A DNA stretch of 64,000 bases from an uncultured Prevotellaceae bacterium. GTDB taxonomy: Bacteria; Bacteroidota; Bacteroidia; Bacteroidales; Bacteroidaceae. The position numbers and the translations under genes are program-made. The stretch covers positions 1-64,000 of the forward strand of contig CAMJZV010000001.1 of assembly GCA_946410305.1 (NCBI GenBank), written 5' to 3'. A model generated the notes under the pieces. That model did no database searches. It was not told where the DNA came from and saw only the letters and a list, made by a program, of their open reading frames with translations. Each line of letters begins with the position of its first letter. Position 1 is the stretch's first letter. Positions 3,961 through 44,186 of the stretch are shown one piece after another.

Positions 3961-4003
3961 TTTCATCTTTCATCTTTAATCTTTAATTTTTCATCTTTCA
4001 TCT
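3961..4003. repeat. GATGAAA / GATTAAA word repeat at the 3' end of the BASS gene
   Basis: About six variants of a 7-8 bp word (on the minus strand GATGAAA, GATTAAA and similar). It encodes the C-terminal residues MKDEKLKIKDER of the transporter and supplies its TGA stop. Confidence 0.7.
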
Positions 4004-4943
4004 TCCTGTATTGCCATAGCTCGATAGAGTTAATGATGTTCTGCCACAACACATAGCAGCCGGCACCAATGGAAGCGACGGGATGCAGATACATATAGGC
4101 CACCCAGATGCTGAGTGCCGTATTCTTTTGGAACAACGCCTGTCCGGCATTAATCTCCTCACCCAGATGGTGACCGATGGCACGACCTATGCCGAACTGT
4201 ACCCAGCAGAGCACAAAGGTGGTGCCGGCTATCAACAACAGCAATGTCAGCGAGGCCGTACTATGCACGATGTTTTTCACCGTGATGCCCGTCGTGATAG
4301 ACAAGGAGATTGCCCAGAAGTAAAAGCTGAGGTTAGGCATAGCAGCGATCATCGCACAGATGCCTTTCATATAATGCTGCATGATCCAACCTAACACCAA
4401 GGGGAGCAAGAGCACAATGCTCACCTTCTCTAAAATAATAAGAAATGCCTCCATGAAGGACACCTTGATAGCCTGCTCTAACATCGGAAAGACAAGAGGT
4501 ATCAACAAGGCGGATGCCAGGGACGAAATCAGCACATAGGTGGTCATCGTCGAGATGTTTCCCCCCAGTTTACCAGTTACCACTGGTGATGCAGAGGCTG
4601 CAGGTCCAATGATGCAGGTTAACATGGCTTCCCAAAGCAGTTTTTGCTCCACGTCAGCCTCCACAAGGAAGACAATACCAATGTTGGCAGCGACCAATAG
4701 CAGCTGGGCCACCAACACACCGATATGCCAGCGATGGGGGCGCATCTGGTGGAAATCCACCTTACAGAACGTTACCCACAGCGTCAGGAACACAAACAGC
4801 GGAAAGATGACATCAAACACGGGTGCCAGTTGTGTACCCAACTCGTCAAGCTGTGGCACATAGTAGAAAGTCAGATAGCACACCGTACCTACTGTAATGG
4901 ATACGGGCAGCGTCCAATCTTTAAGAAATTTGATAATGTTCAT
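3963..4943 (-). CDS. BASS-family (bile acid:Na+ symporter-like) transporter
   Basis: 326 residues with about nine to ten hydrophobic segments and a short cytoplasmic end. The LTCIIGPAASASPVVTGKLGGN segment matches the substrate- and sodium-binding crossover region of BASS-fold carriers, and the second half repeats the fold. BASS members move bile acids, pantoate, pyruvate or other organic anions; the substrate here cannot be read from sequence. The last 12 residues (MKDEKLKIKDER) come from a tandem word repeat and are probably not conserved. The -7 box ends only 11 nt before the start codon, so the leader is very short. Confidence 0.8.
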   Translation of the reverse strand: MNIIKFLKDWTLPVSITVGTVCYLTFYYVPQLDELGTQLAPVFDVIFPLFVFLTLWVTFCKVDFHQMRPHRWHIGVLVAQLLLVAANIGIVFLVEADVEQKLLWEAMLTCIIGPAASASPVVTGKLGGNISTMTTYVLISSLASALLIPLVFPMLEQAIKVSFMEAFLIILEKVSIVLLLPLVLGWIMQHYMKGICAMIAAMPNLSFYFWAISLSITTGITVKNIVHSTASLTLLLLIAGTTFVLCWVQFGIGRAIGHHLGEEINAGQALFQKNTALSIWVAYMYLHPVASIGAGCYVLWQNIINSIELWQYRKMKDEKLKIKDER

Positions 4944-18134: not shown

Positions 18135-18172
18135 CGAAAAAAAAGGGGAATACTTTTGTAGCATCTGCATTT

Positions 18173-18206
18173 TTTTAATTTTTAATTTTTAATTTTTAAT
18201 TTTTCT
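18173..18206. repeat. TTTTTAA word repeat upstream of the thiamine operon
   Basis: Four tandem copies of the 7-bp word TTTTTAA, in the upstream region of the TPP-riboswitch promoter (-7 box at 18210). It occupies the position expected for the -33 element. Confidence 0.6.
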
Positions 18207-25992: not shown

Positions 25993-27834
25993 ATGAAGAT
26001 AGAACAACAGATAGAGCAGGCCGCGATGGCCGCAGTGAAGGCACTCTACGGACAAGAGGTGCCTGAGAAGATGGTGCAGCTGCAGAAGACACGCAGCGAG
26101 TTTGAGGGTAGTCTGACACTGGTGGTATTCCCCTTTGTCAAGATGGCTCGCAAGAGTCCTGAGCAGACTGGTCAGGAGATTGGCCAGTATCTGGTTGACA
26201 ACTGTGAGGCTGTCAGCAAGTTCAACGTGGTGAAGGGTTTCCTGAACCTGAGCATCGCTGACGCTGCATGGCTTAACCTGCTGGCAGACATCGACAAGGA
26301 CGACCACTACGGTGAAAAGAAAGCGGACGAGAGTTCCCCTCTCGTGATGATTGAGTATAGCTCGCCCAACACCAACAAACCTCTGCACCTTGGTCACGTG
26401 CGCAACAACCTGCTGGGTTGGTCGCTGGCTCAGATCATGGAGGCCAACGGCAATAAGGTGGTGAAGACCAATATTGTCAACGACCGCGGCATTCATATCT
26501 GTAAGTCTATGCTCGCTTGGCTGAAGTACGGCAACGGCGAGACTCCCGAGACGTCTGGCAAGAAGGGCGACCACCTGATTGGCGACTACTACGTAGCCTT
26601 CGACAAGCACTACCGTGAGGAGGTAAAGGAACTGACCGCCCAGCTAGTGGCCAGCGGTTTACCCGCTGAGCAAGCTGAGGAGAAAGCTAAGCAGGAGGCT
26701 CCACTGATTAAGGAGGCTCACGAGATGCTGGTAAAGTGGGAGAACAACGACCCCGAGGTACGTGCCCTGTGGGAGAAGATGAACAACTGGGTGTATGCCG
26801 GTTTCGACGAGACCTACAAGAAAATGGGTGTTGCCTTCGACAAGATTTACTACGAGAGCCAGACATACCTGAAGGGTAAGGCCAAGGTAGAGGAAGGACT
26901 CGCCAAGGGTCTCTTCGAGCGCCACGAGGACAACTCTGTTTGGGCCGACCTGACCAACGAGGGTCTGGACCAGAAACTGCTGCTCCGTAGCGATGGCACC
27001 TCTGTATATATGACACAGGACATCGGTACGGCCGAGATGCGTTTCCAGGACTACCCCATCGACAAGATGATTTATGTGGTGGGCAACGAGCAGAACTATC
27101 ACTTCCAGGTGCTCTCTATCCTGCTGGACCGTCTGGGCTTCAAGTGGGGCAAGGAACTGGTACACTTCTCTTACGGTATGGTAGAGCTGCCTAATGGTAA
27201 GATGAAGAGCCGTGAGGGAACCGTTGTTGATGCCGACGACTTGATGGAGCTGATGGTAGAGGATGCCTACAAGACCTCTATGGAACTGGGTAAATTCGAC
27301 GATATGACTGAAGAGGAGCGCCGCGAGATTGCCCGCATCGTGGGTATGGGTGCCCTGAAGTACTTCATCCTGAAGGTGGACGCTCGCAAGAACATGCTGT
27401 TCAACCCAGAGGAGTCTATTGACTTCAATGGTAATACGGGTCCTTTCATCCAGTACACCTACGCCCGTATCCGCAGTATCATTAGGAAGGAGCAAGGAGC
27501 AAGGAGCAAGGAGCAAGAGAATACTCCAAGCTCTGACAAATCTCTTGCCCCCTGTCCCCTGCCCCTTGCCCCTAAAGAGATTGAACTTATCCAGAAGATG
27601 TCCGAGTATGGCGCAGCTGTAGAGCAGGCTGGTAAGGACTACTCTCCCTCTGGCATCGCCAACTACTGCTACGAGTTGACAAAGGTGTTCAACCAGTTCT
27701 ACCACGACTTCTCTATCCTCAACGAGCCCGACGAGCAGAAGAAGGCCATCCGCCTGGTGCTGGCTAAGAACGTCGCTAAGATCATCAAGAACGCTATGTC
27801 TCTGCTGGGCATCGAGGTGCCTGAGCGCATGTAA
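25993..27834 (+). CDS. argS: arginyl-tRNA synthetase with an in-frame repeat insertion
   Basis: 613 residues from MKIEQQ; the track start at 25969 overlaps the -7 box and is rejected. The N-terminal Add-1 domain is followed by the class I core with HLGH (in NKPLHLGHVRNN) and a KMKSREGT loop in place of KMSKS, normal for ArgRS, then YTYARIRSI and the anticodon-binding helical domain. An 87-bp foldback of GGAGCAA-type words adds 29 residues (starting KEQGARSKEQ and ending LPLAP) between the catalytic and anticodon domains. The frame is kept and both flanks match the family, so the enzyme should be functional with a surface loop. Confidence 0.95.
   Translation: MKIEQQIEQAAMAAVKALYGQEVPEKMVQLQKTRSEFEGSLTLVVFPFVKMARKSPEQTGQEIGQYLVDNCEAVSKFNVVKGFLNLSIADAAWLNLLADIDKDDHYGEKKADESSPLVMIEYSSPNTNKPLHLGHVRNNLLGWSLAQIMEANGNKVVKTNIVNDRGIHICKSMLAWLKYGNGETPETSGKKGDHLIGDYYVAFDKHYREEVKELTAQLVASGLPAEQAEEKAKQEAPLIKEAHEMLVKWENNDPEVRALWEKMNNWVYAGFDETYKKMGVAFDKIYYESQTYLKGKAKVEEGLAKGLFERHEDNSVWADLTNEGLDQKLLLRSDGTSVYMTQDIGTAEMRFQDYPIDKMIYVVGNEQNYHFQVLSILLDRLGFKWGKELVHFSYGMVELPNGKMKSREGTVVDADDLMELMVEDAYKTSMELGKFDDMTEEERREIARIVGMGALKYFILKVDARKNMLFNPEESIDFNGNTGPFIQYTYARIRSIIRKEQGARSKEQENTPSSDKSLAPCPLPLAPKEIELIQKMSEYGAAVEQAGKDYSPSGIANYCYELTKVFNQFYHDFSILNEPDEQKKAIRLVLAKNVAKIIKNAMSLLGIEVPERM
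27487..27573. repeat. 87-bp word-repeat foldback inserted in argS
   Basis: Left arm of tandem AAGGAGC words, right arm of CCCCTTGC/CCCCTGTC words, complementary to the left arm with variations and separated by about 25 bp. Length 87 is a multiple of three. The window start (39-69) carries one arm of the same family. Confidence 0.8.
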
Positions 27835-29482: not shown

Positions 29483-30475
29483 CTAATGATGCCAATAGCT
29501 ACGCCATCCCATCATCTTGGCGTACTCCTCCTCTGTGACCTTCTCGTAAACCTTGCCATCACGAACTTCCCAACGGATGTCAAACTCCTCTTTAGTGCGT
29601 GACCAGCGGTCGTGGCTCCACAACCACAGGGCTGGGTCGCGACGGATGGTGCGTTCCAATTCCTGCATATAACGCTCCGTCAACTCGTAGTCGGGAATAG
29701 TCCCTGACTCACGCTCTATCAGTTTAAACTCACATTCGTAGTAGCCACGCTTCACGCGACGCACATCGCCATAGAAGAAAGCCTGCTTGGTGCGCTTGAT
29801 GATGCGCTCAGAACCAGTAAAGACAGGCGTCAGGTGGTTGAGGAAAGGTACCCACAAGTGGATGTTGCGCCAGTTAGGCTTTTGGTCAGCGATATATCCC
29901 ACAACAAGGGGTTTGCCTTCCTGATGGTACTTCACGATATGGCGCAGAGTCTCCTCCATAGGAATGCATACACTACCAAAACGCTGGCGGATATAGAGGA
30001 ACAGTCGGTCGAAGTCAGGATTCTCGATGGGGTGATACAACTCGGCACAGACACCATTGTCAGACATGGCCAATGGCAGGGTGCTGACCCACTCCCAGTT
30101 ACAATAGTGACCCAGCATGACACCACACGAGACACCCTCGCTCCACAGCTTCTCAATAGCCTCCGTGCCCTTGAACACCATACGACGACGCATCTCCTTT
30201 TCGCTGATGGTCATCAGTTTGATGCTCTCTACCAGATAGTCGCAGAACCAATGGTAAAAGTCTTGCTCTATCCGTTTCAGTTCTTTGGCACTCTTCTCAG
30301 GAAAGGCTGTGGCAATGTTTTGTCGGACGATTTTGGTGCGATAGCCAGCGATACGATATAAGACAAAGTACATAATATCAGAGAAGATATAATGTACCCA
30401 CATAGGAAATATTGACGTCACCCAAATCAGGGCAAAGCAACAGTAAGCCAACAATTTGTTTAATCGTCTTTTCAT
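29483..30475 (-). CDS. LpxL/HtrB-like lipid A acyltransferase
   Basis: 330 residues from MKRRLNKLL; the track start lies upstream of the -7 box. One N-terminal membrane segment is followed by the LPLAT motif GHYCNWEW, an HX4E catalytic dyad, and by YIADQKPNW and the ERIIKRTKQAFFYGDVRR region. It transfers an acyl chain to lipid A or a related glycolipid on the cytoplasmic side of the inner membrane. Bacteroidota LpxL homologues can use long chains; the chain here is unknown. Confidence 0.88.
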   Translation of the reverse strand: MKRRLNKLLAYCCFALIWVTSIFPMWVHYIFSDIMYFVLYRIAGYRTKIVRQNIATAFPEKSAKELKRIEQDFYHWFCDYLVESIKLMTISEKEMRRRMVFKGTEAIEKLWSEGVSCGVMLGHYCNWEWVSTLPLAMSDNGVCAELYHPIENPDFDRLFLYIRQRFGSVCIPMEETLRHIVKYHQEGKPLVVGYIADQKPNWRNIHLWVPFLNHLTPVFTGSERIIKRTKQAFFYGDVRRVKRGYYECEFKLIERESGTIPDYELTERYMQELERTIRRDPALWLWSHDRWSRTKEEFDIRWEVRDGKVYEKVTEEEYAKMMGWRSYWHH

Positions 30476-30485
30476 ATCGCCGATG

Positions 30486-30545
30486 CAAAGATACAAAATA
30501 ATTCATAATTCATCATGCATAATTCATAAATATTTTGTAATTTTG
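30486..30545. promoter_or_regulatory. 60-bp divergent promoter cassette, copy A
   Basis: Minus-strand -7 box TATCTTTG (30486-30493) and plus-strand -7 box TAATTTTG (30538-30545) enclose a TAATTCA word repeat with outer arms ACAAAATA / TATTTTGT. It drives the LpxL-like gene to the left and the GT4 gene to the right. It matches the cassette at 42280-42339 in 55 of 60 positions with no gap. Confidence 0.75.
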
Positions 30546-30565: not shown

Positions 30566-31738
30566 ATGACAAGAATACTGTTTCTGCTAAGCCGTTTCCT
30601 GGATGGAGGCATCGATGCGGTGCTGCTGGACTACCTGCGCTATCTGGCACAGCGCGAGGACTACAGCATCACGCTGGCCATCAGCATTCACATGGGTGAG
30701 TTGGAGGTTTTCCGGAAACAAATTCCTGAACAAGTCAAGGTGGTATACCTCGTCGACCAGCCCATGCTGACACGCTGGCGCCAGCAGAAAATCACCCAGC
30801 GGTTACCTTTTTATATAAAGATGTACGACGAGGCACTGCTCTCCCCTATCCGCCGCCACATGATAGGTCAGAAGCTACGCCAGCTGGCTACACTGCACGA
30901 CGTGGTCATCGACTTCGACTGTTGCCACTATGCATACCTGAAGAACGTCAAAACGTGGAAGGTGGCATGGTTCCACTTCAGCTTCAAGCAACTCATGGAG
31001 CAGAACAGGCGACGCACACAGCGCATCGGCAACCACCTGCGCTACTACAGCCGCATCGTCACCATCTCACAGGCCATGCTCGACGAGGGCAAGGAGCTGT
31101 TCCCCTGGTTGGAAGGCAGGTGGCGCCTCATCTATAATGCCAAAGACGAGGAGCTATTGCGGCAGCGTGGCAGCAAACCTGTCGACGATATACGCATCAA
31201 TGACAGCTACATCTTAGCCATTGAGCGACTGGAAGAGTCGCAGAAAGACCTGTCGACGCTGATTCGTGCCTACCAGCTATTACGCAGCGAATACCACCAT
31301 GAAGAAAAGCTTTACCTGCTGGGCAAAGGACGCGACGAACAACTATTGCGCCAACTGGCAGAGAGTCTTGGCATCTCCGACCATGTGGTATTCCTTGGCT
31401 TCAGCAGCAACCCCTACCCTTGGATAGCTCATGCCAAAGCCATTGCCCACAGTGCCAAGTTCGAAGGACTGCCCACCGTGATGATTGAGTCACTCATCAT
31501 GGGCAAGCTCATCGTGGCTACCGACTGTCCTACAGGTCCTCGCGAGATACTGGACCAAGGACGTGCCGGACTGCTGACGCCCGTCGGCGATGCGGCAAAG
31601 ATGGCAGAGAGTCTGCACCAGCTGCTGACCGACGAGGATCTACAGACATCCATCCTCGCCCATGCCAAAGAATATAAGCGGCAGTTCCTTTTCGACTATG
31701 CTGGCAAACTATTCGACGAAGTGATACACCCCTCATAA
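30566..31738 (+). CDS. GT4 glycosyltransferase
   Basis: 390 residues with a two-domain GT-B layout. The N-terminal domain begins ILFLLSRFLDGGIDAVLLDYL, and the C-terminal domain holds the GT4 motifs FLGFSSNPYPWIAHAKAIAHSAKFEGLPTVMIESL, with the E-x7-E glutamates around KFEGLPTVMIE. It probably transfers a sugar from a nucleotide donor to a lipid-linked or LPS acceptor in the cytosol. It is followed 11 nt later by a GT2 gene, so the two form one unit. Confidence 0.88.
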   Translation: MTRILFLLSRFLDGGIDAVLLDYLRYLAQREDYSITLAISIHMGELEVFRKQIPEQVKVVYLVDQPMLTRWRQQKITQRLPFYIKMYDEALLSPIRRHMIGQKLRQLATLHDVVIDFDCCHYAYLKNVKTWKVAWFHFSFKQLMEQNRRRTQRIGNHLRYYSRIVTISQAMLDEGKELFPWLEGRWRLIYNAKDEELLRQRGSKPVDDIRINDSYILAIERLEESQKDLSTLIRAYQLLRSEYHHEEKLYLLGKGRDEQLLRQLAESLGISDHVVFLGFSSNPYPWIAHAKAIAHSAKFEGLPTVMIESLIMGKLIVATDCPTGPREILDQGRAGLLTPVGDAAKMAESLHQLLTDEDLQTSILAHAKEYKRQFLFDYAGKLFDEVIHPS

Positions 31739-40324: not shown

Positions 40325-42274
40325 CTACGGTGTCAGCCTATTTTGTGTCATACGCTCCATGTACTGCTGGATGATAGCCTTCAGCTCTCGTTCCATCTGT
40401 GGCTGTTCAGGAATCTTGCCAACAAGGTTCTGCTGCATCAGCGAGTCGCTAAGTGCATAGACACCACGGGTGGTCTGACCATCAAACTGTAGGATATGAC
40501 CGTGTTTTACATATTGATAGATACCATTTAGATAGTTTACGGCCCACGTATCCTCAGCAGGCGTCGTCAACAGGTCAACACCAAATGAGAGGTACGGCTT
40601 GTCATAGCCCAGATGCTCCAGAATAGTCGGCATGATATCGGTCTGCTGCGCAATGGCATCGACCATACCCTCTCCCATCTCACCACTGGGGTCGTAGAAG
40701 ATGACGGGCGACGCAAAGCCACCTATATCCGTACGGTAGTGCTGGTACTTCGTCATATTGGTGTGGTCGCTGGTGATGGCGAAGATAGTATTCTTATACC
40801 ATGGCTGTTTCTTAGCACTTTCGAAGAAGTGTTGCAGCGCCATATCGGTATAACGTATCACCGGATAGATTTCCATCTCAGGATCTTCATTCTTGAAGAC
40901 ATCCTTATAAGCATCGGGTACACGGAACGGGTGGTGACTGGATAGGGTAAACAACGCCGTCATAAATGGTTCTTTCATATCGGTCATCTTCTGACACATA
41001 TACTGCATGAAGGGCTCGTCACTGATTCCCCACCAGCCGTCATACTCCTTGTCGCCATTGGTTCGCGGATCAGCATTGAAGTCCTCGCGACCGTAGTACT
41101 CCTTGAACTTCGTAGCACGGGCGAAGGCCATAAAGCCCATAGAACCGCGCTCAGCACCATGGAAGAACGCTGTCTCGTAGCCCTTACCATTCAGACAGTC
41201 TGCCAGTCCCGATACATCGTTGACACTATAGGGTGACAGGAAGAACGGCTCGACGAACATTGGGATGGATGAGAGTATCGAAGGCATACCATCTATCGAC
41301 TTACGCCCATTGCAGTAACTGTAGCGATAGGTCAGTGCACCATGTGCCAACAGCGAGTCGGTAAACGGAGTCTGCGACGGATAGCCTGCCTCCTTATTAT
41401 ACGTTCCTATATATTCTCTGCCGAAGCTCTCGATGATAATCACCACCACATTCTTCTTGACGAATGGATGACGACGCTGCGGCTGGCGCACAGGATTGAA
41501 AATCTGCTCCAACTGCTTAGCATCGTAGTAGGTAACGACTTCAAAATTATTCTTGCCAATAGTTCGTATCAGTGAGAATGGTGTGTTCAGCACCAGACCA
41601 GTCTCGGTAGGACGGTCGCAATAGTTGTTAGCATTCGACACGGTGATAGGACGGATGTCGCGCGTCCAGCCACCACGCATACCTGCTACGCAGAACGGTG
41701 TAAAACCCAACAGGGACACCAGCAAAGCCAGTGTACACCAGCGCCAATCCACCTCTTTGCGCAATGTGCGAGGCTTGATATACAGTCGCCACAGTCCCCA
41801 AGCCACCAAACCTGTCAACAGAAAGAAATACCAGTGGCGCACCATCTCTGTCCAAAAGATGCCACCAAGATTGTTCTCGTTCTCAAACTCCTGGAAGATG
41901 GTTGTCGTAGTACGACGCATGGAGTAGCGGAAATACACCGTATCCACGAGGTTTACAATCAGTGTCAGCGTATTGATGACCACAAATACCCAACGGCACA
42001 CCTCGTGGTAGGTCTTCGTTTCTTTCAAGTGCAGAGGAAACAACACCATCACCACCCACAAGGCGTTTGTATAGAGTATCGCCGTGGTGTCGAACATCAG
42101 TCCACCGCGCAACATCTCCATCAGATGCGGCCACGACAGATTGTCGGCATAGAGGCTCCAGTTCTCGGCCAAAAAGGTCATACGGGCTATAAAGTACACC
42201 ACATAGGCCAACAGCAAGTTGCCCAGCACGCTGACCAGCGGTGACAGGTATGTCTGTACGATTTTCCGTTTCAT
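40325..42274 (-). CDS. LTA-synthase-family membrane phosphotransferase/sulfatase (1)
   Basis: 649 residues from MKRKIVQT; the track start would be upstream of the promoter and read through the word repeat. About five N-terminal membrane helices precede an extracytoplasmic alkaline-phosphatase-superfamily domain with VVIIIESFGREYIG (metal-site Glu) and ITSDHTNMT (metal-site Asp-His). At the nucleophile position it has NGRKSIDGMPS, a serine where LtaS-type enzymes usually have threonine. Members transfer phospho-head groups such as phosphoethanolamine or glycerol phosphate. The -7 box ends 5 nt before the ATG. Confidence 0.83.
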   Translation of the reverse strand: MKRKIVQTYLSPLVSVLGNLLLAYVVYFIARMTFLAENWSLYADNLSWPHLMEMLRGGLMFDTTAILYTNALWVVMVLFPLHLKETKTYHEVCRWVFVVINTLTLIVNLVDTVYFRYSMRRTTTTIFQEFENENNLGGIFWTEMVRHWYFFLLTGLVAWGLWRLYIKPRTLRKEVDWRWCTLALLVSLLGFTPFCVAGMRGGWTRDIRPITVSNANNYCDRPTETGLVLNTPFSLIRTIGKNNFEVVTYYDAKQLEQIFNPVRQPQRRHPFVKKNVVVIIIESFGREYIGTYNKEAGYPSQTPFTDSLLAHGALTYRYSYCNGRKSIDGMPSILSSIPMFVEPFFLSPYSVNDVSGLADCLNGKGYETAFFHGAERGSMGFMAFARATKFKEYYGREDFNADPRTNGDKEYDGWWGISDEPFMQYMCQKMTDMKEPFMTALFTLSSHHPFRVPDAYKDVFKNEDPEMEIYPVIRYTDMALQHFFESAKKQPWYKNTIFAITSDHTNMTKYQHYRTDIGGFASPVIFYDPSGEMGEGMVDAIAQQTDIMPTILEHLGYDKPYLSFGVDLLTTPAEDTWAVNYLNGIYQYVKHGHILQFDGQTTRGVYALSDSLMQQNLVGKIPEQPQMERELKAIIQQYMERMTQNRLTP

Positions 42275-42279
42275 GGCTG

Positions 42280-42339
42280 CAAAGGTACGAAATAATTCAT
42301 AATTCATAATGCATAATTCATAATTATTTCGTAATTTTG
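42280..42339. promoter_or_regulatory. 60-bp divergent promoter cassette, copy B
   Basis: Minus-strand -7 box TACCTTTG (42280-42287) and plus-strand -7 box TAATTTTG (42332-42339) enclose TAATTCA words with outer arms CGAAATAATT / AATTATTTCG. It drives LTA-synthase-like gene 1 leftward and the YejM-like gene rightward, each with only 5 nt between box and ATG. Near-copy of 30486-30545. Confidence 0.78.
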
Positions 42340-42344
42340 CGCCC

Positions 42345-44186
42345 ATGAAACTCATAAAACAAGGATTTATCTACTATTTGCTGGCTACCATCCTGGGTGG
42401 CTTGCTGCTTCTGTTCTACATACAGGGCGATAGCGTGGCATCCACGCTTGATAAGGTAGGATGGTTGTTCTTCCTGACATCGTGTTTCTCACATGCCGCC
42501 ATTCTTATGTTGGCTCTTTGGCTTATATTCTTCCTGCCGTGGGCACTGCTGAAGCTGCGCCGACTGGCGGCTACGCTATTGGTGACAGCAACCAGTCTGC
42601 TGATGATGACAGGCTTCATCAATATGCAGGTGTACAAGATATACCGCTTTCACCTGAACGGCTTCATCCTTAACATGCTGACAGGCCCTGCTGCCGGTGA
42701 CATTTTTGACTTCAGCTGGCAGCTATATGTCACTGAGGGACTCATGCTGGCTTTTATCCTTGCCTTATGTATTGGTGGCTGGTGGCTCAGCGGACGTATC
42801 CTACAGCGTTGGCAGAAACGCCATACCCTCATCTCCATTCTGTCGCTCGTCGGCACCCTGCTTATTGCCAACGGCATTCATATCTATGGCTCATTCGTTG
42901 CCAAGCCGACAGTGCTTAAAGTTGTCAAACTAGTGCCCTACTACTTTCCGTTGTCTACAAGCGATTTGTTGGAGGATATGGGGTTCGAACGCCACACCAT
43001 ACAAGTAGACGAAATCACAGACGGCGACTTCATCTATCCGTTACATGCCATCAAGACGGACACCACACTCACCAAGCGTCCCAACATTCTCGTTATCCTT
43101 ATCGACTCCTGGAGCCGTCGGGCACTGACAGAAGAGTGCATGCCCAACCTCTGGCAGCTGGCTCATCAGGAACAGTGGTACCAGAACCACGTCAGCTGTG
43201 GCAACGGTACGTCATACTCCGTCTTCGGCATGTTCACGGGCTTACAGCCTTACTATTGGACTGCCTGGGACACCAACCGCAAGAGTCCGGTACTCATCGA
43301 CCAACTGCTGAAGCAGGGTTACAATGTACGCACCTATCCCAGCGCCTCGCTGGTAGACCCTCCCTTTGCGCGCATGCTCTTCGGTCATGTTCCTAACCTT
43401 ACGATACGTACGGCAGGCAACTCGTCCTTTGAACGCGATACGAACATCAAGGACAACCTTATCAGCGATCTGCCCACACTAAAGGACAGCGATAAACCCT
43501 TCTTTGCCTTTATTTTCTTCGACCTGCTGCATGCCTACAGTCTTCCAAAGGAATACCTACTCCGCTTCCAGCCGTCGTGGGAGTACGGCCGTTTCGATGA
43601 ATTACACAACGATATGGATCCTACCCCCTTCTGGAATCTCTATCGTAATTCCGCCTATCAGACCGACAGGATGGTGGGTGAGATTATCAATAGCATGAAA
43701 GTACTGGGTATGTACGACAACACCTTAATATATATTACTGGTGACCACGCTCAGGAGTATAACGAGAACCACAAGAACTACTGGGGCCACAACTCAAATT
43801 TCTCACAGTACCAGATTGGCGTGCCCCTCATCGTGCACGATCCCGACACATCTTCCATTAACCATCATCCATCAACCATCTATAAGCATCGCACCACCCA
43901 TCTAGACTTCGTGCCAACACTGATGCACGACTATCTGGGCGTCACCAATCCCATTGAGGACTACAGCAATGGCTATCTACTCAACGATACCACTCCCCGT
44001 CTATGGCACTATGTTGGCAACGAGCTACGCTATGCTTTCATCGTAGATGGTGACACTATTCTCACCAAGGAAGGTGCTGGCTACATCGAAGTTACTGACA
44101 AGCATCTTAATCCCGTCCCCGACTACCACATCAATCCAAAAGATTTTGATGCAGCCATCAAACGTCTCAACAGGTTTTACAAATAG
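42345..44186 (+). CDS. YejM/PbgA-like membrane sulfatase-fold protein
   Basis: 613 residues. Five N-terminal helices with the DUF3413-like segment LPWALLKLRRLAATLLVTATSLLMMTGF and YRFHLNGFILNMLTG, followed by a periplasmic alkaline-phosphatase-fold domain (ILVILIDSWSRRAL, GNGTSYSVFGMFTG, YITGDHAQEYNEN). This is the layout of E. coli YejM/PbgA/LapC, which monitors LPS in the inner membrane and controls LpxC. Presence of a Thr at the nucleophile position leaves enzyme activity open. It is divergent from LTA-synthase-like gene 1 and ends exactly next to the stop of gene 2. Confidence 0.82.
   Translation: MKLIKQGFIYYLLATILGGLLLLFYIQGDSVASTLDKVGWLFFLTSCFSHAAILMLALWLIFFLPWALLKLRRLAATLLVTATSLLMMTGFINMQVYKIYRFHLNGFILNMLTGPAAGDIFDFSWQLYVTEGLMLAFILALCIGGWWLSGRILQRWQKRHTLISILSLVGTLLIANGIHIYGSFVAKPTVLKVVKLVPYYFPLSTSDLLEDMGFERHTIQVDEITDGDFIYPLHAIKTDTTLTKRPNILVILIDSWSRRALTEECMPNLWQLAHQEQWYQNHVSCGNGTSYSVFGMFTGLQPYYWTAWDTNRKSPVLIDQLLKQGYNVRTYPSASLVDPPFARMLFGHVPNLTIRTAGNSSFERDTNIKDNLISDLPTLKDSDKPFFAFIFFDLLHAYSLPKEYLLRFQPSWEYGRFDELHNDMDPTPFWNLYRNSAYQTDRMVGEIINSMKVLGMYDNTLIYITGDHAQEYNENHKNYWGHNSNFSQYQIGVPLIVHDPDTSSINHHPSTIYKHRTTHLDFVPTLMHDYLGVTNPIEDYSNGYLLNDTTPRLWHYVGNELRYAFIVDGDTILTKEGAGYIEVTDKHLNPVPDYHINPKDFDAAIKRLNRFYK

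Follow-up and report, generated by a model that had tools for sequence, protein, structure and literature searches.

The window, that is, the whole 64,000-nucleotide stretch of DNA from an uncultured Prevotellaceae bacterium analysed here, contains two closely similar 60-bp segments, each located between a pair of divergently oriented genes, with the following features:

29483-30475, minus strand: LpxL-type lipid A acyltransferase gene (PF03279)
30486-30545, no strand: putative 60-bp bidirectional promoter cassette, copy B (sequence, BLAST)
30486-30493, minus strand: -7 box TATCTTTG of the LpxL-like gene
30498-30529, no strand: copy B heptamer array, (ATAATTC)x4.6
30538-30545, plus strand: -7 box TAATTTTG of the GT4 gene
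30566-31738, plus strand: GT4 glycosyltransferase gene (PF13692)
40325-42274, minus strand: Sulfatase-family (LtaS-like) gene (PF00884)
42280-42339, no strand: putative 60-bp bidirectional promoter cassette, copy A (sequence, BLAST)
42280-42287, minus strand: -7 box TACCTTTG of the LtaS-like gene, ending 5 nt before its ATG (42274)
42290-42297, no strand: A/T tract adjoining the minus-strand -7 box, at about -35 to -42 of the plus-strand promoter (sequence, tract profile)
42292-42325, no strand: copy A heptamer array, (ATAATTC)x4.9, with one TGC unit
42308-42312, plus strand: AATGC, with T at -22 and G at -21 of the plus-strand promoter; apparent partial -33 element, presumably derived from the deviating third unit
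42322-42329, no strand: A/T tract adjoining the plus-strand -7 box, at about -35 to -42 of the minus-strand promoter (sequence, tract profile)
42332-42339, plus strand: -7 box TAATTTTG of the YejM-like gene, ending 5 nt before its ATG (42345)
42345-44186, plus strand: DUF3413+Sulfatase (YejM-like) gene
2802-2836, 3961-4004, 18172-18204 and 27487-27517: unrelated period-7 repeats

An earlier note on this DNA had reported that copies A and B agree at 55 of 60 positions, that each contains two -7 boxes (TAnnTTTG), and that they separate an LpxL-type acyltransferase from a GT4 gene and an LtaS-like from a YejM-like sulfatase; all of this was reproduced. The mismatches are at positions 6, 10, 29, 45 and 51. 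The window contains the 26-base left half two times, whereas none of 100 shuffles contains it, which excludes chance. The TAATTCA words, in contrast, do not face inward as described in that note, but are direct tandem copies of one 7-base unit; the inverted repeat of the cassette consists of its outer arms, CAAAnnTACnAAATAATT and AATTATTTnGTAnnTTTG. In single-stranded form, the cassette folds into a hairpin much stronger than those of shuffled sequences (z -5.3). In Bacteroidota promoters, TAnnTTTG is placed at -12 to -5 (PMC9723704). The ATGs of the LtaS-like (42274, minus strand) and YejM-like (42345, plus strand) genes follow TTTG by 5 nt, which predicts mRNA leaders of about 1 nt; very short leaders are described as rare in Bacteroidota (3.7-5.5%).

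A search for further copies detected about 30 in the 3.2-Mb assembly (BLAST E<1e-9), almost all between divergent ORFs, and more in related genomes, with a near-exact copy in 47 of 200 congeneric genomes. Scanning GTDB genomes with a pattern that specified the left box and array but not the right box yielded 108 stretches. The source records, most of them metagenome assemblies, are named Prevotella, Prevotellaceae, Bacteroidales, Bacteroidaceae or simply uncultured bacterium, and many are from ruminants, going by name. The right box is at a span of exactly 60 in 82 of the 108 loci (76 counted by script and six logged at 52, where a chance TATTTTTG lies ahead of the true box at 60), and ORFs are divergent in 83 of the 91 loci with ORFs on both sides. 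The proposal of a bidirectional promoter module is thus borne out: further copies are numerous, divergent genes flank nearly all of them, and the second -7 box keeps a fixed distance; the two copies in the window belong to a large family of compact putative two-way promoters in rumen Prevotella. The orientation of the array is linked to the type of -7 box: the second n is C in 62 of 67 left boxes and 25 of 67 right boxes. The only RNA models that matched the cassette were those of eukaryotic miRNA precursors, far below gathering scores, as expected from an AT-rich palindrome, and a structured RNA was accordingly rejected.

Elsewhere, the cassettes mostly adjoin housekeeping genes: greA/exbB, release factor/queA, proS/ompA, thymidine kinase/TP-methylase and FKBP/Sir2. 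Another such pair is what we take to be murF/folP, names that come from reading the protein starts rather than from a family scan.

The paired difference at positions 10 and 51, A-T in one copy and G-C in the other, is real, but its proposed role in keeping the palindrome does not hold in the family. Over 63 gene pairs, the two positions were complementary in 22 cases, whereas shuffling gave an expectation of 26.5 (p=0.96); none of the other symmetric pairs of positions covaries in this set. In copies A and B, two bases that adjoin the -7 boxes and vary independently happen to differ together.

The fixed span turned out to be one case of a broader regularity. Divergent GCAAAnnTA...TAnnTTTGC pairs with gaps of 26-87 were gathered genome-wide, giving 49 pairs at gaps 26-56 and 57 pairs at gaps 57-87 (spans for the latter were taken from the 49 of the 57 that were listed), compared with none for the reversed-pattern control. 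Among those listed, the spans of the 80 non-heptamer pairs cluster at 50-51, 60-63, 69-72, 80-84, 91-95 and 100-105, and spans of 52-59, 64-68, 73-79, 88-90 and 96-99 are empty. The best period is 10.45 bp with a Rayleigh power of 45; in 2000 uniform simulations in which the period was likewise scanned, the 99% level was 8.5 and the maximum 12.3. With period and phase fixed, four congeneric genomes (G007, G011, G010, G008) agree among the matches listed (V-test p 1e-11 to 6e-5). For four genomes of other families, again among the matches listed, G014 and G019 agree, G013 does so weakly, and G012 shows no phasing at this period and phase. The heptamer cassettes occupy the 61-bp slot. Separately, two identical 87-bp divergent promoter regions were observed on different contigs of genome G000 (C1:93093-93179 and C11:59295-59381), probably representing a repeated mobile element.

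Matching helical steps are found within individual promoters. In 114 single promoters from the neighbourhood of cassettes (no array, and no divergent box closer than 150 bp), A/T tracts are centred, relative to the T of TAnnTTTG, near -28, -38, -48, -58, -69 and -80, with a period of 10.6 bp (Rayleigh 53.5 versus a jitter maximum of 16); in Prevotella promoters the tracts are strongest near -38. Thirty promoters behind co-directional genes have a matching lattice (Rayleigh 17), so hidden divergent partners do not explain the lattice. A further A/T tract of each promoter is centred near -6.5, and the requirement that this tract of the partner fall on a promoter's own lattice predicts spans of 51.5, 61.5, 71.5, 82, 92.5 and 103.5. 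The observed modes (near 50.5, 61, 71, 81, 92 and 102.5) lie close to these predictions, which suggests a shared A/T element as a cause of the spacing.

The single promoters are also enriched in T at -24 to -22 and G at -21/-20. In the window cassette, the -33 TTTG that would be sought about 20 bp upstream is reduced to TG on the plus side and is absent on the minus side. The G of the third array unit lies at -21 relative to the right promoter, and it accompanies a weaker right -7 box (29/33 versus 18/34, p=0.003), a link that may in part reflect shared ancestry. Arrays of AATTATC units have a deviating GTC or GCC unit that puts a G at -20 (L155; C20:32276; G007 C4 and C16). Together, these cases suggest that deviating units tune the -33 element: the changes from TTC to TGC and from ATC to GTC or GCC all place a G at -20/-21 and thus appear to supply this element.

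We consider it probable that the cassette is a compact bidirectional housekeeping promoter, helically phased, with the heptamer array as an exchangeable spacer. Under this reading, the TAnnTTTG -7 boxes face outward at a T-to-T distance of 45 bp, the upstream parts of the two promoters would overlap, and the distance between them would be set by helical phase. At the spacing of the cassette, the A/T tract beside one box is at -38 of the partner, so that one element could serve both promoters. The phase itself may instead stem from avoidance of polymerase clash or from shared bending by a nucleoid protein. The array would be a filler of fitting length, four to five heptamer units fitting the 61-bp slot, produced by the strong tendency of these genomes to slip or duplicate in 7-bp steps. 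Whether a genome-wide helical rule arising from the doubled -7-proximal A/T tracts, together with a 7-bp repeat process that continually supplies fitting spacers, applies in Prevotella is, in our estimate, evenly balanced.

Period-7 arrays of varied sequence are the main class of tandem repeat in the cassette loci: they account for 225 of 534, 114 of these without cassette units, compared with none in Markov-resampled DNA. In the window, too, tandem repeats most often have a period of 7. Heptamers have been described as over-represented in bacteria, and polymerase slippage has been put forward tentatively as the cause (PMC4692102, PMC4679880). The ATAATTC unit contains TAA in one strand and TGA in the complementary one and hence places stops in all six frames. 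In three loci (L026, L029 and L030, near 1500-1545), the same heptamer arrays start where a gene ends and include its TAA stop codon, and in L023 (about 1500-1560), an array takes up an entire co-directional intergenic gap, reaching from the stop codon as far as the following -7 box.

Comparison of orthologous sites shows that, between species, the spacer was flipped, swapped for other heptamers or lost, with the geometry usually kept. The murF/folP pair mostly has spans of 58-61, 38-39, 89-90 or 102, and its arrays are of several heptamer types or absent. Its slot holds an ATAATTC array with a TGC unit in L115, L123 and L154, the inverted array without a TGC unit in L055, L068 and L194, AATTATC units in L155, TCGTAAA units in L160 and CTCTAAA units in L179; L168, L191, L192 and L198 have the 60-bp slot without an array. 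In L157, three units were lost and the span is 39; the 21 bp removed would amount to two helical turns. Longer spans are seen in L162 and L197 (89-90) and in L203 (102), and some orthologs depart from the spacing rule, with a span of 143 in L183 and several lacking the pair. Spacer insertions of about 30 bp, or about three turns, with the phase kept, were observed in L162 (murF/folP, span 89) and in L209 (window-type, span 92). At the window site in the sister species G162 (L205; also L073), the cassette is inverted including the boxes, and the 70-bp ATG-to-ATG gap is retained.

The latter observations bear on how the cassettes spread. Ectopic gene conversion or template switching, with near-palindromic ends letting cassettes overwrite each other or flip, is quite possible, if slightly doubtful, and can operate alongside the phased-promoter reading. 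At six gene pairs, the window included, both orientations are found among orthologous cassettes, and the -7 boxes move with the array: the window cassette matches L205 at 58/60 positions inverted versus 40/60 direct, and greA/exbB orthologs match at 58/60 inverted versus 40-42 direct. The strong single-stranded hairpin, the known inversion of spacers through template switching (PMC8604942), and the concordance of the third-unit base within genomes (186 pairs versus 137 expected, sd 8) also fit. However, flipped orthologs in general agree at 53-58/60, hardly above unrelated loci (mean 54.3, 7% reaching 58), so that in-place inversion and replacement leave the same trace, and conversion would account for spread and flips, not for helical spacing. 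The earlier proposal that the module is mobile or gene-converted is thus partly borne out, by the two orientations and the swapping of heptamers; inheritance, however, is often vertical.

We regard it as improbable that the cassette is a MITE-like small mobile element, a 60-64 bp unit with inverted ends that transposes carrying both promoters. The many copies, the inverted ends at which similarity halts, and the link between array orientation and -7 box type fit such an element, but the ends are merely promoter boxes, non-heptamer divergent promoters have equal spacing, and orthologous pairs with other arrays or none keep it. In addition, cassettes of this genome are no more alike than those of other genomes (49.8 versus 52.3 of 60), and whole-cassette homogenisation within genomes was not seen. 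No copies were found in the viral contigs and plasmids searched, which also led us to reject spread by phages or plasmids.

Two further explanations have very little to recommend them. An operator for envelope genes, as the earlier note had envisaged, bound in this version by a dedicated regulator, would agree with the position of both window copies between envelope genes, but most other copies flank the housekeeping genes listed above, unrelated heptamers take the place of the array in orthologs, and symmetric covariation is absent. Phase variation by a recombinase-driven invertible promoter, suggested by the inverted ends and the inverted states between species, is similarly far-fetched, given that either state would drive both genes, that the arms differ at the nn positions of the boxes and are only about 24 bp apart, and that flips were seen between species and none within one genome.

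The phased promoter with an exchangeable spacer shares parts with several known systems; in the open-access literature, we found no description of a phased two-way promoter with a repeat spacer and no paper containing the array sequence. If correct, it would offer a simple, testable rule for how divergent promoters are spaced in a genus that dominates gut and rumen, of use in promoter annotation and in building two-way expression parts, and an example of promoter geometry that persists while successive heptamer repeats replace the intervening DNA. Like the cassette, the bidirectional promoters with -10 symmetry described by Warman et al. in 2021 (as summarised in PMC10268837) are short, near-symmetric sequences transcribed both ways. 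In that summary, however, their -10 elements overlap, with a usual distance of 18 bp (7-25) between starts, whereas the cassette boxes have a T-to-T distance of 45 bp and predicted starts about 69 bp apart, distances are helically quantised, and genes lie to either side; assignment to this class was rejected. The BrickBuilt MITE of Porphyromonas gingivalis (PMC4596501) is likewise intergenic and repeat-bearing, with bidirectional promoter activity, but is larger, with 23-nt repeats and IS-like or other terminal repeats. Intergenic arrays of the heptanucleotide TAACTGA in Beggiatoaceae, Cyanobacteria and some Bacteroidetes (PMC4679880) resemble the cassette arrays, which are also intergenic tandem 7-nt units, and have stops in all forward-strand frames. 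The TAACTGA arrays, however, directly precede start codons, whereas the cassette arrays, with the unit ATAATTC, lie between head-to-head -7 boxes at a fixed span and were not assigned to that family. A periodic upstream signal that replaces or accompanies the -35 box is also known from the RpoD promoters of Campylobacter jejuni (Petersen 2003, as cited in PMC4132750); relative to that account, the periodicity here also fits the distance between divergent promoters, and a weak -33 element remains. Finally, the cassettes have TAnnTTTG ahead of a gene, as do Bacteroidota sigma-AB promoters (TAnnTTTG with a -33 TTTG; PMC7366714, PMC9723704), and the T/G enrichment of the single promoters corresponds to the -33 element of that class; what the cassettes add to these descriptions, in the sections of both papers available, is divergent phasing and periodic A/T tracts.
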